64,000 nt of DNA from Bacteroidales bacterium KHT7 (GTDB taxonomy: Bacteria; Bacteroidota; Bacteroidia; Bacteroidales; Bacteroidaceae), in contig FNBQ01000003.1 of the NCBI GenBank assembly GCA_900102385.1, positions 68,787-132,786 on the forward strand, given 5' to 3'. Every line of letters starts with the position of its first letter. The stretch's first letter is position 1. Positions 1-8,022 of this stretch are shown piece by piece. The position numbers were made by a program, and so were the translations under genes. Below the pieces are notes generated by a model. It was not told the origin of the DNA. It did no database searches and saw only the letters and a list, made by a program, of their open reading frames with translations.

Positions 1-824
1 ACACTATTATTAATGTTGAAAACGTAACAAAAGACGGTGTTAAAAAAGATAAAAATTTCGAGCCAACGCCTGACAAAACAATCGTAAATATTTTTGATTT
101 TGAGCGTATTGTAGTTGGAAGTATATTCAATGGCTGGCTTAACTCATCTACATACTTTGGAGAAAAACCAAAAAGTTATAAAGGTAGTGAGTATTTGTGG
201 CAAATGATTTTAACATACCGCAAGGCGTTTTACGACTACATATATAAATCGCAGACAGAAACATTGACTTGCAGAATGTTTGACGATATGATGTTTAATT
301 CGATTCTTTTGAATATTCGTAATGACGAAATTAAAATTCGCTTTGAATTCAACTCGTTAATCAAGTGGAAAATAAACATTTGGTTCAGTTTGTATAACTT
401 ATTCAGTAACAATAATAATAACAATATTATGGCTTCAAAAGTAACAGAATTACAAGCAAAAATGGTTGCTGTCGCAAAAGGAGAAGCGAACATTGAAACA
501 AAAGAAGAGTTCGCTTTTGGAGCGGGACAGATAGTTTCGTACCTTATCGACCGTAGCGCAGCAAGCAACAAGACATACGCATTGTTGGAACCATATTTGC
601 AAAAAAGCAAATCAGACCAACTGCAAGACGCAATAGCACAAACAATTGCCGTTTATAAACACGACATTAGTGTTTATAAAGGTACATTTGAAAACCTTTC
701 GTCGCAGGTACTTACCGACGATTGCAACGCAGATATGAAACCTTTGCTAAAATACTTTTTGGCAGGTTGTTTCAGTCCTTGCGCAGTTTACACAAAAAAA
801 GACAATTCAAATAACCAACTGTAA
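1..824 (+). CDS. cas8b: Type I-B CRISPR large subunit Cas8b, C-terminal part (5' end outside window)
   Basis: The reading frame is open from base 3 to the stop at 822-824, so 273 residues of a longer protein are visible. Cas8b is the large subunit of the type I-B Cascade and takes part in PAM recognition and Cas3 recruitment. The family is assigned mainly from position: it directly precedes cas7 and cas5 in a complete I-B operon. The C-terminal helical stretch (FGAGQIVSYLI, then ALLEPYLQ) resembles the end of Csh1-type proteins. A six-Asn linker (encoded by AAY codons, about 408-425) separates a body domain from the last 131 residues, which look like a fused small subunit. There are 11 bases between this stop and cas7. 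The N-terminal half and any zinc-binding cysteines are not visible, so the subtype name is partly inferred. Confidence 0.75.
   Translation, partial: TIINVENVTKDGVKKDKNFEPTPDKTIVNIFDFERIVVGSIFNGWLNSSTYFGEKPKSYKGSEYLWQMILTYRKAFYDYIYKSQTETLTCRMFDDMMFNSILLNIRNDEIKIRFEFNSLIKWKINIWFSLYNLFSNNNNNNIMASKVTELQAKMVAVAKGEANIETKEEFAFGAGQIVSYLIDRSAASNKTYALLEPYLQKSKSDQLQDAIAQTIAVYKHDISVYKGTFENLSSQVLTDDCNADMKPLLKYFLAGCFSPCAVYTKKDNSNNQL
429..824 (+). CDS. Candidate internally translated Cas11 small subunit (within cas8b)
   Basis: An in-frame ATG at 429 would give a 131-residue, mostly helical protein starting MASKVTELQAK. Its context, an A/T-rich run followed by ATTATGGC, is nearly the same as the starts of cas7 (836) and cas5 (1858) in this operon, and cas5 also begins MAS. 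Independent translation of Cas11 from the 3' end of the large-subunit gene is known for several type I systems, including I-B, I-C and I-D, and the length fits a small subunit. The poly-Asn linker just before the ATG marks a domain boundary. Seen: the ATG, its context and the linker. Inferred: that ribosomes start here. The alternative is that this is only the C-terminal domain of Cas8b. Confidence 0.5.
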   Translation: MASKVTELQAKMVAVAKGEANIETKEEFAFGAGQIVSYLIDRSAASNKTYALLEPYLQKSKSDQLQDAIAQTIAVYKHDISVYKGTFENLSSQVLTDDCNADMKPLLKYFLAGCFSPCAVYTKKDNSNNQL

Positions 825-2644: not shown

Positions 2645-5356
2645 ATGTTTGACAAAGATTTTTTTGACAACTTATTAAAAGGAAAAGGCGGATGTTATTA
2701 TGCGCATTTGCCTAAATCAGAGCAATCGGGCAGACGTCCCGAACTTCTGTCGGAACATTCTGCCCTTACGGTAAGTTATGCAAAAAAAATTGTCGAAGCT
2801 CATAATCTTGAAGACATTATAAAAAAACTTGCGGAAGATTCAGTTCCTAAAAAATTGAATAACAGAAGTTTGATTGCCGATACAATAGAAGACCTTTTTT
2901 GGAAGGCTATCGCCTTCCACGATTTGGGAAAAATCAACCACGAGTATCAGCAAAAGCGGATGGGAAATAATAATCCTGTTATAAAAGTCAAACACACGTT
3001 TGGCTCGCAACATTCGATTATTAGCGCATATTTGTATCTTGCATTGTTTTTCTATGAATTTCAAGCATTTCAAATGTCTGAGGGAGAACAGACGTTTTTA
3101 ATAAATGCAGCATTTTATCTTTGCAATCCAATTATTCAGCATCATAGTTCAATAATCGGACGTTGTCAAAATGAGAATGAGTGGAGTGAACAGCAAAACG
3201 GCGAACCCATCTGCGGTAAGAAAATAGAGGATTTAAGACCGTATCTTCAAATAATTGATTGTCAACTTAATGACGAACAAATTGGGATGTTTCACGAGTA
3301 TATTTTGGGTAATACAAATCATATTTTTGAAACATACAATGAAGCAATTATAGAAAAAGATTGCGGCTTCCCGCTGTACGCACTCATCAAACTTCTTTAT
3401 TCGTTGCTTACCGCAGCGGATTATTTGGCGACCGCACATTATATGAACGGTTGGCAAACAATGATTTCGGATTTTGGGATTTTGAGCGAAAGCACCAAAA
3501 ACAAAATCATCAACAACGCCCGAAATTCCAAACCATACAACAAACAAACTTATACGGATATTGCCGAAGGCAAAACAATCAACCCCGATGATTATAAGGA
3601 ACGCAGCGGCAAAAATTTAAATATCCTTCGCGAAGCATTGGCGATAGATGTAATAAAAAACGTAAGAAACAACATTGACAAACGACTATTTTACATTGAA
3701 GCCCCAACAGGCGGCGGCAAAACCAACGTGTCGATGTTGGCGTTGTCTGAATTGTTGGCTGCCAAACCACTGATTCAAAAGGTGTTTTATGTTTTCCCGT
3801 TCACCACATTAATTACGCAGACTTTCAAAAGCCTAAAAGAGACATTAGGCCTTGAAGATGGTGAATTGATAGAATTTCACTCAAAAGCACCCAAGAATAC
3901 AAGCCATTACGAAGACGATTATTTGAATTATATCGACACTCTGTTTTTGAATTTCCCGATAGTTCTATTGTCGCATGTTAGTTTCTTCAACGTACTTAAA
4001 ACTAACGAAAAAGACCACAACTATTTATTGCAGAGATTGGCTCATTCGGTTGTAATAATCGACGAGGTTCAGTCGTATCCGCCAAAAATCTGGGACAAGA
4101 TGGTTTACTTTATAGCGAACTACGCCAATTATTTTGATATTAGATTTATATTGATGTCGGCTACGCTGCCAAAAATAGGCAATCTCATTGAAAACAAATC
4201 ACTTGGCAATGAATTTACATATCTTGTCAACAACAAGAATCTATACTTTCAAAATCCTAATTTTGCAAACCGTGTGGATTTCGATTATTCACTTTTGGAG
4301 TTGGCAAAACCTGAAAAAGATGACATCGAAACATATTTGGAAAGATTGGGCGAATTTGTTGACAATGAATCAAAACTCTATGCAGAAACTAACACGGACA
4401 ACCCTGACAGCGTTTTTACAGTTGTTGAATTTATTTTCAAGAAATCCGCAGGTTATTTCTACGAAATAATGCAAAGAAATACAACGTGCTTTGATGAAAT
4501 ATTGTTGCTTTCGGGAACGATATTGGAGCCTCGTAGAAAACAGATAATCAACGCCTTAAAATCTGACAAATATCGTTCACAAAAAGTTTTGTTGGTAACG
4601 ACGCAAGTTGTGGAAGCGGGCGTTGATATTGACATGGATTTGGGATTCAAAGACAAATCGCTGATTGACAGCGAAGAACAAATCGCCGGTCGTATCAACC
4701 GCAATGCCAACAAAAAATCTTGCAAACTTTATATTTTTGATTGCAATGCGGAAAAAACAATTTACGGTAGCGACGACAGATATAAACTCGTAAAGGATTT
4801 TGTCAGCGAAGAATATCAAAAGATATTAGAAACCAAAGATTTCGATTATCTTTACGACAAAATAATCGAAAGAATCAAGCAAAAAAACAAATCAAATTTT
4901 ATGGTAAATTTGAATGATATGCTTGATTCAATGTTGAAATTGAATTGTGCGGAAGTAAACAAATCGTTTGAAATAATTGACCGTAAAAATTGTTCGATAT
5001 TTATTCCGTTGGAAATAGATACGGAACTTATTGACGACAAATTGCTCAAAATTGCGAATGAGTTTGGTTTTGATACCGTTACAACATTGTCGGGAGACGA
5101 AGTTTGGAATAAATACGAGGAAATCATTAAAAATCAGGACGCTGATTTTGTCAGAAACAGAATCATGTTAGACAAAATTCAAGGTTTGATGTCGCAATTT
5201 ACAATTTCGGTTTTTCCCGAAAGCAAAGATGCCGAATTGTTGAAACGCTATGGTGAAGAAAAGTACGGTTATTTGTTTTTGGTATCATATTCCGAAGTGT
5301 ATTCGTTTGAAAACGGCATAAATACAACAGTTTTGCAATACTCTAACTTTTTGTGA
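2645..5356 (+). CDS. cas3: CRISPR nuclease-helicase Cas3
   Basis: A 903-residue Cas3 with fused HD nuclease and SF2 helicase, which degrades the target strand after Cascade binding. The HD domain is shown by His38, His92-Asp93 (AFHDLGK), a His pair around residue 117-123 (HTFGSQH) and QHHSS near 172. Helicase motifs are APTGGGKT (about 353-360), IIDEVQS (about 471-477), LMSATLP, TTQVVEAGVDIDMD and EQIAGRINR. All key residues are present, so it should be active. I chose the ATG at 2645, 7 bases after the cas5 stop, rather than a GTG at 2612 inside cas5, which adds a non-family extension. Its stop is 2 bases before the cas4 ATG. Confidence 0.95.
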   Translation: MFDKDFFDNLLKGKGGCYYAHLPKSEQSGRRPELLSEHSALTVSYAKKIVEAHNLEDIIKKLAEDSVPKKLNNRSLIADTIEDLFWKAIAFHDLGKINHEYQQKRMGNNNPVIKVKHTFGSQHSIISAYLYLALFFYEFQAFQMSEGEQTFLINAAFYLCNPIIQHHSSIIGRCQNENEWSEQQNGEPICGKKIEDLRPYLQIIDCQLNDEQIGMFHEYILGNTNHIFETYNEAIIEKDCGFPLYALIKLLYSLLTAADYLATAHYMNGWQTMISDFGILSESTKNKIINNARNSKPYNKQTYTDIAEGKTINPDDYKERSGKNLNILREALAIDVIKNVRNNIDKRLFYIEAPTGGGKTNVSMLALSELLAAKPLIQKVFYVFPFTTLITQTFKSLKETLGLEDGELIEFHSKAPKNTSHYEDDYLNYIDTLFLNFPIVLLSHVSFFNVLKTNEKDHNYLLQRLAHSVVIIDEVQSYPPKIWDKMVYFIANYANYFDIRFILMSATLPKIGNLIENKSLGNEFTYLVNNKNLYFQNPNFANRVDFDYSLLELAKPEKDDIETYLERLGEFVDNESKLYAETNTDNPDSVFTVVEFIFKKSAGYFYEIMQRNTTCFDEILLLSGTILEPRRKQIINALKSDKYRSQKVLLVTTQVVEAGVDIDMDLGFKDKSLIDSEEQIAGRINRNANKKSCKLYIFDCNAEKTIYGSDDRYKLVKDFVSEEYQKILETKDFDYLYDKIIERIKQKNKSNFMVNLNDMLDSMLKLNCAEVNKSFEIIDRKNCSIFIPLEIDTELIDDKLLKIANEFGFDTVTTLSGDEVWNKYEEIIKNQDADFVRNRIMLDKIQGLMSQFTISVFPESKDAELLKRYGEEKYGYLFLVSYSEVYSFENGINTTVLQYSNFL

Positions 5357-5358
5357 TT

Positions 5359-5871
5359 ATGAGAGTAACAGGTACATTATTCAATTATTACCAAGTTTGC
5401 AAAAGAGAACTTTGGTTTCACGCCAACGAGATAAGAATGGAGCATAACTCTGAATTGGTGGCGGAGGGTAAGTTTGTACACGAGGAGAGTTACCCCAAAC
5501 GCAGCGAAAAATACGAGGAGGTGGAAATCGACGGCGTCAAGGTGGACTATTTTGACGCGAAAAACAACATCATTCACGAAATCAAAAAGAGCGACAAAAT
5601 CGAAAAAGCACACCTTTGGCAGTTGAAATACTACATCTACGTTTTTGGAAAGAACGGAATATCAGGAGTTTCGGGCGTTTTGGAGTATCCAACAATGCGT
5701 CAGACCGAAAAGGTGGAACTCTCCGACGACGACCGCAAAAAGATAGAAACCATCTGCCAAGAAATTGAAACTATCTGCGAATCAGACGATTGCCCACCGA
5801 TACTGAAAAAAGGTTTCTGCAAAAATTGCAGTTATTACGATTTGTGCTTTGTTAACGAAAATATCGACTGA
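5359..5871 (+). CDS. cas4: CRISPR adaptation exonuclease Cas4
   Basis: A 170-residue RecB-family Cas4 with an Fe-S cluster. Together with Cas1-Cas2 it trims prespacers and selects PAM-compatible ends. Visible features are an N-terminal Cys (YYQVCKRELW), the RecB core (DYFDA...HEIKKSDK), the QLKYYIYVF segment that matches the conserved Q-x-x-x-Y motif, and a C-terminal Cys set (GFCKNCSYYDLCF) that completes the four cysteines. The ATG at 5359 is 2 bases after the cas3 stop. Length is normal for Cas4. Two bases separate it from cas1, consistent with coupled expression of the adaptation genes. Confidence 0.93.
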   Translation: MRVTGTLFNYYQVCKRELWFHANEIRMEHNSELVAEGKFVHEESYPKRSEKYEEVEIDGVKVDYFDAKNNIIHEIKKSDKIEKAHLWQLKYYIYVFGKNGISGVSGVLEYPTMRQTEKVELSDDDRKKIETICQEIETICESDDCPPILKKGFCKNCSYYDLCFVNENID

Positions 5872-5873
5872 CT

Positions 5874-6890
5874 ATGAAACAGACATTTTACCTTTTTAAT
5901 CCGGGAGTTTTGGAGCGCAAAGACAATACTCTGAAATTCACCGCAATAACAGAGGACGGCAACGGCGAGGAAACTCTCGGCAAGCCTAAATATCTGCCTG
6001 TGGAGCAGGTGGGCGATATTTATGTTTTTGGCAGTCTGAAAGCCAACAGCGCGTTGTTCAACTTCTTGGGACAAAAGGACATAGCGGTACATTTTTTCGA
6101 CTATTACGAAAACTATACGGGTTCTTTTATGCCAAGGGACAGCGTTTTGAGCGGCAAATTGTTGTTGGCTCAGACGGCGGCGTATCAAAACAAGAAAAAA
6201 CGTTTGGAGATTGCGCGGAAGTTTATCGAAGGCGCGGCTTTCAATATGGTCAAAAACTTGAAATATTACGACAACCGAGGCAAGGATTTGGAAAGTTATA
6301 TTCAGAAAATCAATGAGTTGGCTTTACAAATAGACAGCACCGAGGACATCAAGGAACTGATGGGCACAGAAGGTATGATTCGTCAGACGTATTATTCGGC
6401 TTTTGACTTGATAATCAACGATTTTGTGATGGAACTCCGCACCAAACAGCCGCCTCAAAACGAGGTTAATGCTTTGATTTCGTTTGGTAATATGATGTGT
6501 TACTCGGAAACTTTGCGGGCGATTCACCAAACTCAGTTGAACCCGACGATAAGTTATCTTCACTCGCCGGGTGAAAGGCGTTATTCGCTGAGTTTGGACA
6601 TCTCGGAGATTTTTAAGCCGATTATTGTTGATAGGGTCATCTTTAAAGTATTGAATAAGAAGATGATACAGCCGCAACATTTTGACCGCAAGTTAAATAG
6701 TTGCCTTCTTAACCAATCGGGCAAAAAGATTTTTGTGCAAGTGATGGAAGAGCGTTACAAGGAGACCATCAGGCACAAGTCGCTTGGCAGGAATGTCAGT
6801 TACAAGCACCTGATAAAACTTGAATGTTACAAACTCGTAAAACACTTGCTCGGCATTGAGGAATACAAGCCGTTCAAGATGTATTGGTAA
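5874..6890 (+). CDS. cas1: CRISPR integrase Cas1 (type I-B)
   Basis: A 338-residue Cas1, the metal-dependent integrase that inserts spacers at the leader end. The catalytic triad is visible: Glu166 in MGTEGMIRQTYY, His230 in ISYLHSPGERRYS and Asp242 in LSLDISEIFKP. The N-terminal beta domain (FYLFNPGVLERKDNTL) and the KPKYLPVEQVGDIYVFG block match I-B Cas1. Length is normal. It follows cas4 by 2 bases and is separated from cas2 by 61 bases. It should act on the array just downstream. Confidence 0.97.
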   Translation: MKQTFYLFNPGVLERKDNTLKFTAITEDGNGEETLGKPKYLPVEQVGDIYVFGSLKANSALFNFLGQKDIAVHFFDYYENYTGSFMPRDSVLSGKLLLAQTAAYQNKKKRLEIARKFIEGAAFNMVKNLKYYDNRGKDLESYIQKINELALQIDSTEDIKELMGTEGMIRQTYYSAFDLIINDFVMELRTKQPPQNEVNALISFGNMMCYSETLRAIHQTQLNPTISYLHSPGERRYSLSLDISEIFKPIIVDRVIFKVLNKKMIQPQHFDRKLNSCLLNQSGKKIFVQVMEERYKETIRHKSLGRNVSYKHLIKLECYKLVKHLLGIEEYKPFKMYW

Positions 6891-6951
6891 TTGACAATGA
6901 ACAAGTAGGTTCTTTGACATATTGGAAATAACGATTAAAAATTTAAGCATT

Positions 6952-7215
6952 ATGTACGTAATTTTGGTTTATGATTTTGGAGAAAGACGTGTTTCAAAAA
7001 TGTTGAAACTCTGCCGCAAATACTTGAATTGGATTCAGAACTCGGTGTTTGAGGGCGAAATAACGGAGTTGCAACTAAAACAGTTGGAAGCATCGGCCAA
7101 GGATTTTATGGATCCCGACGAAGACAGCATAATAATTTTTTCGTCGCGTTCGCAAATGTTTATGGATAAGCGCATTATAGGCGTTGAGCGCAACACAACG
7201 GACAATTTTTTGTAA
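6952..7215 (+). CDS. cas2: CRISPR adaptation protein Cas2
   Basis: An 87-residue Cas2, the dimer that bridges two Cas1 dimers. It starts MYVILVYDFGERRVSKML, with the conserved acidic residue Asp8 after the first strand, and has the usual NSVFEGEIT segment. I place the start at the ATG at 6952 (context GCATTATG, like other genes in this operon); an upstream start at 6922 would add ten residues before the conserved first strand. It ends 207 bases before the first CRISPR repeat. Confidence 0.95.
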   Translation: MYVILVYDFGERRVSKMLKLCRKYLNWIQNSVFEGEITELQLKQLEASAKDFMDPDEDSIIIFSSRSQMFMDKRIIGVERNTTDNFL

Positions 7216-7422: not shown

Positions 7423-7978
7423 ATTTTAATCGAACCATAGTGGAATTGAAACGCGATAACCTTTGCGTTTGTCTCAGTCGGGTGCTCCATTTTAATCGAA
7501 CCATAGTGGAATTGAAACGTCCGTGCTTCCGTTAAAAAAGGTAAAGTATCTATAATTTTAATCGAACCATAGTGGAATTGAAACGGCAATGGGATAAAAC
7601 AAAAGGGGCGTTGATGTTGTATTTTAATCGAACCATAGTGGAATTGAAACATATAATATTTGGTTATTATTGGTAAAGTATCTATAATTTTAATCGAACC
7701 ATAGTGGAATTGAAACAAAAGAAAGCCCAGTCCTATTTTCCCAAACCGCACATTTTAATCGAACCATAGTGGAATTGAAACAGTACTATCTTATTCATTT
7801 ACTTATTGTATTTTTTATTTTAATCGAACCATAGTGGAATTGAAACGTTATAGGGTTAAACTTGCGCCTTATCTCGCCAAGATTCTAATCGAACCATAGT
7901 GGAATTGAAACTGTATGTACGAGTTGTACACAAGTGCTCTGTCACGCTATTCTAATCGAACCATAGTGGAATTGAAAC
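7423..7978 (+). CRISPR. CRISPR array, 9 repeats and 8 spacers (type I-B)
   Basis: The 30-base repeat begins ATTTTAATCG and ends GTGGAATTGAAAC, with the ATTGAAAC 3' end common in type I-B arrays. Repeats start at 7423, 7489, 7555, 7621, 7687, 7752, 7817, 7882 and 7949. Spacers are 35-37 bases. The first seven repeats are identical; the last two carry C for T at position 4 (ATTCTAATCG), so the leader-distal end is on the right and new spacers enter next to cas2. Spacer 2 (7519-7554) and spacer 4 (7651-7686) share their last 15 bases. The small number of spacers and the intact adaptation genes suggest a functional array. Confidence 0.98.
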
Positions 7979-8022
7979 AAGGTCTATCTCCCCAGTCCAC
8001 TTAATGCAGATTTTCATAAATA

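Follow-up and report, generated by a model that had tools for sequence, protein, structure and literature searches.

A putative internal start codon for Cas11b within cas8b of a Bacteroidales type I-B CRISPR operon, and the match of its leader to the host mode of translation initiation

The type I-B operon and its array

The window, that is, the whole 64 kb stretch of DNA that was analysed, starts inside a type I-B CRISPR operon on the + strand, in which cas6, cas8b, cas7, cas5, cas3, cas4, cas1 and cas2 are followed by a CRISPR array. Operon and array are complete, the edge of the window cutting cas8b, and the operon genes were matched by PADLOC, NCBIfam and Pfam. The 3' part of cas8b occupies positions 1-824 (+; open frame 3-824), and the gene starts 1036 bases upstream of the window, as seen from the surrounding contig; its product, the large Cascade subunit, has 619 aa overall. 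It is followed, all on the + strand, by cas7b (836-1855; Pfam Cas_Cas7, E=2.3e-37; PADLOC Cas7b), cas5b (1858-2637; TIGR02592, E=1e-32; PADLOC), cas3, with HD nuclease and helicase (2645-5356; PADLOC Cas3b, E=8.7e-243), cas4 (5359-5871; Pfam Cas_Cas4, E=2.5e-53), a type I-B cas1 (5874-6890; TIGR03641, E=3e-138) and cas2 (6952-7215; TIGR01573, which matches from residue 11 of the mechanical ORF starting at 6922). The array itself (7423-7979, +) comprises 9 repeats of about 30 nt (ATTTTAATCGAACCATAGTGGAATTGAAAC) with a spacing of 65-67.

The full-length product of cas8b is matched by the PADLOC Cas8b model PDLC01507 (E=2.4e-80), positions 431-559 of which correspond to the last 131 residues of the protein. 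Both the Pfam and the NCBIfam libraries were also tried, and no model in either of them names the Cas8b of the window; the matches that they returned were dismissed as noise. With no model for the family in Pfam or NCBIfam, the gene would go unnamed by both libraries, and annotation misses the Cas11 subunit.

The placement of this protein on the tree depends on the part considered. Residues 361-619 fall firmly inside the Bacteroidales clade (support 100), and residues 1-330 fall outside it, on a very long branch (AU test against grouping, p=0.037). The Cas8b of the window (1-824; L002:3752-4830) may be a chimera, or may have a fast-evolving N-terminal part.

Conservation and context of the Met489 codon

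Within cas8b, an ATG at 429-431 (+), in frame with the 3' end of the gene, encodes Met489 of Cas8b and opens a frame of 131 aa (429-824, +) for a predicted helical small subunit. The codon is preceded by the hypervariable linker SNNNNNNI (405-428, +), whose DNA constitutes the A-rich, unstructured leader of the putative cas11b start. The preliminary description had drawn attention to this in-frame ATG, to the poly-Asn linker and A-rich stretch before it, and to a context like that of the cas7 and cas5 starts, and all of these points were borne out: the octamer ATTATGGC is found at 426, 833 and 1855, exactly at the cas11, cas7 and cas5 starts, and occurs 6 times in the window, as compared with 1.8 expected.

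Homologues were gathered at the level of the family and of the phylum and from a collection of whole genomes, and 36 non-redundant Bacteroidota proteins were kept after near-duplicates and truncated loci had been dropped. Met489 is present in all 36, and in their alignment Met1 and Met489 are the sole invariant methionines of Cas8b. On the homologue tree, with a total length of 16.7 changes per site, no change is found at Met489, and linker columns 481-488 show a mean of 12.8 changes per column; the linker is variable in length (4 to 14 residues) as well as in sequence. Moreover, a methionine stands at the domain boundary in 8 more Bacteroidota loci (L106, L108, L109, L110, L113, L117, L118 and L119) and in 3 loci outside the phylum (L038 from Clostridia, and L067 from Arcobacter and L068 from Sulfurospirillum, both Campylobacterota). 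Together with the 36 aligned proteins these make 47 homologues with a readable linker, and the comparison of the start codon across related loci, which the preliminary description had advised, found the methionine in 47/47; homologues keeping the domain and lacking a start codon near the linker, which it had regarded as decisive against internal initiation, amount to 0/47. By this comparative evidence, the Met489 codon as a functional internal start is well supported.

Some loci require comment. L032 and L046 are truncated, ending before or at the linker, and L033, with frameshifts on both sides of the domain start and a contig coverage of about 2x, was kept outside the 47, the Met still being there. 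A break of the L119 gene by a flagged TGA was considered and rejected, the TGA falling outside the 630-aa frame. A 139-aa frame in the relative L113 was likewise rejected as a standalone cas11: the contig break lies exactly in the linker, and the N-terminal part is on L112. The assembly of this relative splits cas8b at the linker and can pass for a standalone cas11. Viral contigs and phages were also searched, and no relative was found among them.

As regards the loci from other phyla, the I-B operon of the Arcobacter cloacae plasmid (L067:3216-3731, 5425-7664) has extra genes, including an AAA ATPase, which lie in the intervals from cas6 to cas8 and from cas8 to cas7. The cas8 of this plasmid and that of Sulfurospirillum are annotated merely as hypothetical protein.

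The sequence around the codon also has start-like features. When scored with a weight matrix derived from 114 unambiguous start sites in the host genome, ATG429 receives 3.59 bits, a value above 97.8% of internal ATGs and about equal to that of the cas5 start (3.49 bits). Two results count against it: among real starts ATG429 is no higher than the 32nd percentile and scores below the cas8b start (9.65), even though each Cas8b is accompanied by 3 Cas11b in the solved I-B complex, and Met500 scores slightly higher (4.51), yet is conserved in only 13/36 proteins. In further comparisons, whose p-values are optimistic, the loci being treated as independent though related, and whose direction agrees in every test, the residue after Met489 is small (ASGPTVC) in 33/36 proteins vs 77/314 (25%) at other internal methionines (p=1.8e-15), which fits removal of the initiator Met; A occupies position -3 in 27/36 (75%) vs 120/314 (38%) (p=2.8e-5), this base being reported to favour initiation in Flavobacterium johnsoniae (PMC6847099); compared with the gene average, the 50 nt around the ATG show far less structure (Wilcoxon p=1.3e-9); and third positions in the ten codons before Met are 80% A/T vs 71% elsewhere (p=2.5e-4).

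The invariance of Met489 could in principle have another origin, if full-length Cas8b alone were made and the methionine were kept for protein structure where the C-terminal domain enters its first helix. A predicted helix (489-504) does begin precisely with Met489, and some neighbours outside the linker, S475 and F480, are invariant as well. However, the residues flanking Met489 vary freely, the linker differs in length, and such a structural role, which we regard as very improbable, leaves unexplained the small residue after Met, the A at -3, the low RNA structure and the Shine-Dalgarno motifs of the relatives, described below.

The leader sequence and the host mode of initiation

The preliminary description had assumed a host without reliance on Shine-Dalgarno sites, and only about 1% of 230 starts were found to carry one. 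Such motifs occur at 0-2% of starts in the genome of the window and in its same-class relatives G096, G149 and G592, and Bacteroidia ribosomes have been reported not to recognise them (PMC9976891). In five genomes from another class of the phylum, one of which is uninformative since it gives just 14 starts, they are found at 7-32% of starts vs 1-4% of internal ATGs.

The signal before the cas11 ATG matches the type of host, being A-rich and unstructured, with A at -3, in hosts that do not use Shine-Dalgarno sites, and AGGAG/GGAGG in those that do. The latter motif is located 5-8 nt before the ATG in 10/10 homologues from that other class and is absent from the remaining 31 alignment rows, L015 having GAGG only; in the relatives of the window an A-rich leader takes its place. 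In the 3 homologues from other phyla (plasmid homologues included), AAAGGAG or GAGGAG precedes the ATG. The residues encoded by the Shine-Dalgarno leaders vary (GGIN, GGEN, KGVN, GDKN and also Glu-Glu-Lys-Glu), and what is kept is thus the DNA motif and not the peptide. Those rows of the phylum that bear the motif form one clade of the tree, which probably reflects one change of signal rather than many independent events.

These results bear on the release of free Cas11b by proteolysis of Cas8b, instead of internal initiation. A flexible, Asn-rich linker is compatible with cleavage, and for type I-B, fragmentation of Cas8b was once proposed in Clostridium thermocellum and Methanococcus maripaludis (cited in PMC11899642); proteolysis, however, needs neither a Met nor a ribosome-binding signal, yet it is these two that are conserved and not the linker peptide, which makes it even less credible than a purely structural role. 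Just as hard to credit as proteolysis is the translation of Cas11b from ATG429 on a separate short transcript with its promoter inside cas8b, since, although the same start codon would serve and its conservation is compatible with this, an internal promoter sought upstream of ATG429 in 31 loci was not found, the Bacteroidetes -7 motif TAnnTTTG occurring in 1/31 vs 7% of background windows.

Internal initiation is therefore preferred: cas8b almost certainly yields two same-frame proteins, full-length Cas8b and a free Cas11b begun at ATG429. With regard to its history, the cas11b start is likely to be an old, invariant overlapping gene, the signal of which was rewritten when the Bacteroidia lineage dropped Shine-Dalgarno sites, the linker residues then being set mainly by initiation. 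If this is true, the linker reads Gly-Gly, Lys-Gly-Val or Gly-Asp in Shine-Dalgarno-using relatives as a reflection of AGGAG/GGAGG, and poly-Asn/Lys here as a reflection of the A-rich stretch. An internal start that is encoded differently in the two groups of hosts would also offer a natural comparison for the study of initiation without Shine-Dalgarno pairing.

A separate observation concerns cas7. The motif AGGAGAT stands just before this gene in six Bacteroidales-type loci (L008:2573-2594, L009:5933-5954, L010:4114-4135, L013:5948-5969, L031:5898-5919 and L035:2117-2138), and is absent before the other readable cas starts and before the cas11 start. Its presence is unexpected, as such hosts are not thought to use Shine-Dalgarno sites; it may be vestigial or may serve in regulation.

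The predicted Cas11b and known Cascade complexes

The 131-aa domain, described beforehand as helical, is indeed predicted to be all-helical (pLDDT 82), and in the model of full-length Cas8b a helix runs from residue 489, the linker forming a lower-confidence coil. The top Foldseek match of the 131-aa model is a weak one (E=0.6, probability 0.60) to 7kha_K, the Cas11c chain in the type I-C Cascade of D. vulgaris, type I-A Cascade chains (7tr6) being found lower among the matches, with E values of 0.6 or worse. For the full Cas8b, the top match is chain I of 8dej, also from the D. vulgaris type I-C Cascade (probability 0.99, E=0.0055), which we take to be Cas8c. Weak as the domain matches are, they support, short of proof, a type I Cas11 fold for the 131 residues. 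Cas11 and Cas8b sequence profiles found no solved structure in the PDB.

A Cas11 profile, run against the whole genome, has its single match inside cas8b, and a standalone cas11 gene was not found. Members of the Bacteroidales clade share 62-94% identity over the Cas11 part vs 32-79% over the rest of Cas8b. Saturation at four-fold degenerate sites is equal in the two parts of cas8b (35% and 37% identical), so the higher identity of the Cas11 part reflects constraint on Cas11 and not recent transfer.

The production, copy number and role of Cas11b, which we infer by analogy with better characterized complexes, could be as follows. Initiation at the first cas8b codon would give full-length Cas8b, which ends in a domain predicted to be a helical, Cas11-like bundle. 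Other ribosomes would be recruited to ATG429 by the unstructured, A-rich stretch, which doubles as the coding sequence of the poly-Asn linker, and would produce a free Cas11b of 131 aa, probably shortened to 130 aa by removal of the Met, since Ala follows. Copies of the free Cas11b would adjoin the C-terminal domain of Cas8b and form the belly of Cascade, by analogy with Synechocystis I-B, and this belly would hold the non-target (displaced) DNA strand, after the model for the same system.

The preliminary description was right that separate translation of Cas11 is known in other type I systems; it has also been published for I-B itself, internal translation being established for types I-B, I-C and I-D (PMC11899642 and its references; PMC7684278; PMC11096372). 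A search confined to the open-access literature found no paper joining Cas11, Bacteroid*, type I-B and translation. Internal Cas11 translation as such is thus already known, and the window provides a well-supported further case of it; the new part is the lineage-matched change of the ribosome-binding signal; hidden Cas11 genes would at the same time be extended to the type I-B systems of Bacteroidota.

The closest systems by type are those of Synechocystis, whose I-B Cascade has one Cas8b and three Cas11b (PMC11096372; structure 8H67), and Haloferax volcanii, with an internal cas8b start at M545 (PMC11899642). As in these, the window has an in-frame start between the N-terminal part of Cas8b and the C-terminal domain, a small C-terminal product (here predicted) and no separate cas11 gene. 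Unlike them, its leader is without a Shine-Dalgarno motif and its product is a predicted one, and searching the PDB with a sequence profile fails to link its protein to them. Type I-C Cas11c of D. vulgaris (7kha, 8dej; PMC7684278) provides the best fold match, for the domain and for the full Cas8, and its start is likewise internal, at the end of cas8; it differs in type and in its reported internal ribosome-binding site, and the match of the domain alone scores weakly. Finally, a start within cas8b has also been proposed for the Cas11 of Thermotoga maritima type I-B1 (PMC13199841), which belongs to another phylum; the signal of this start falls short of what counts as optimal in E. coli, where it is silent. 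As E. coli ribosomes prefer other signals, cas11b would probably have to be supplied separately if a Cascade such as that of the window were rebuilt in this species, as has been reported for Thermotoga.
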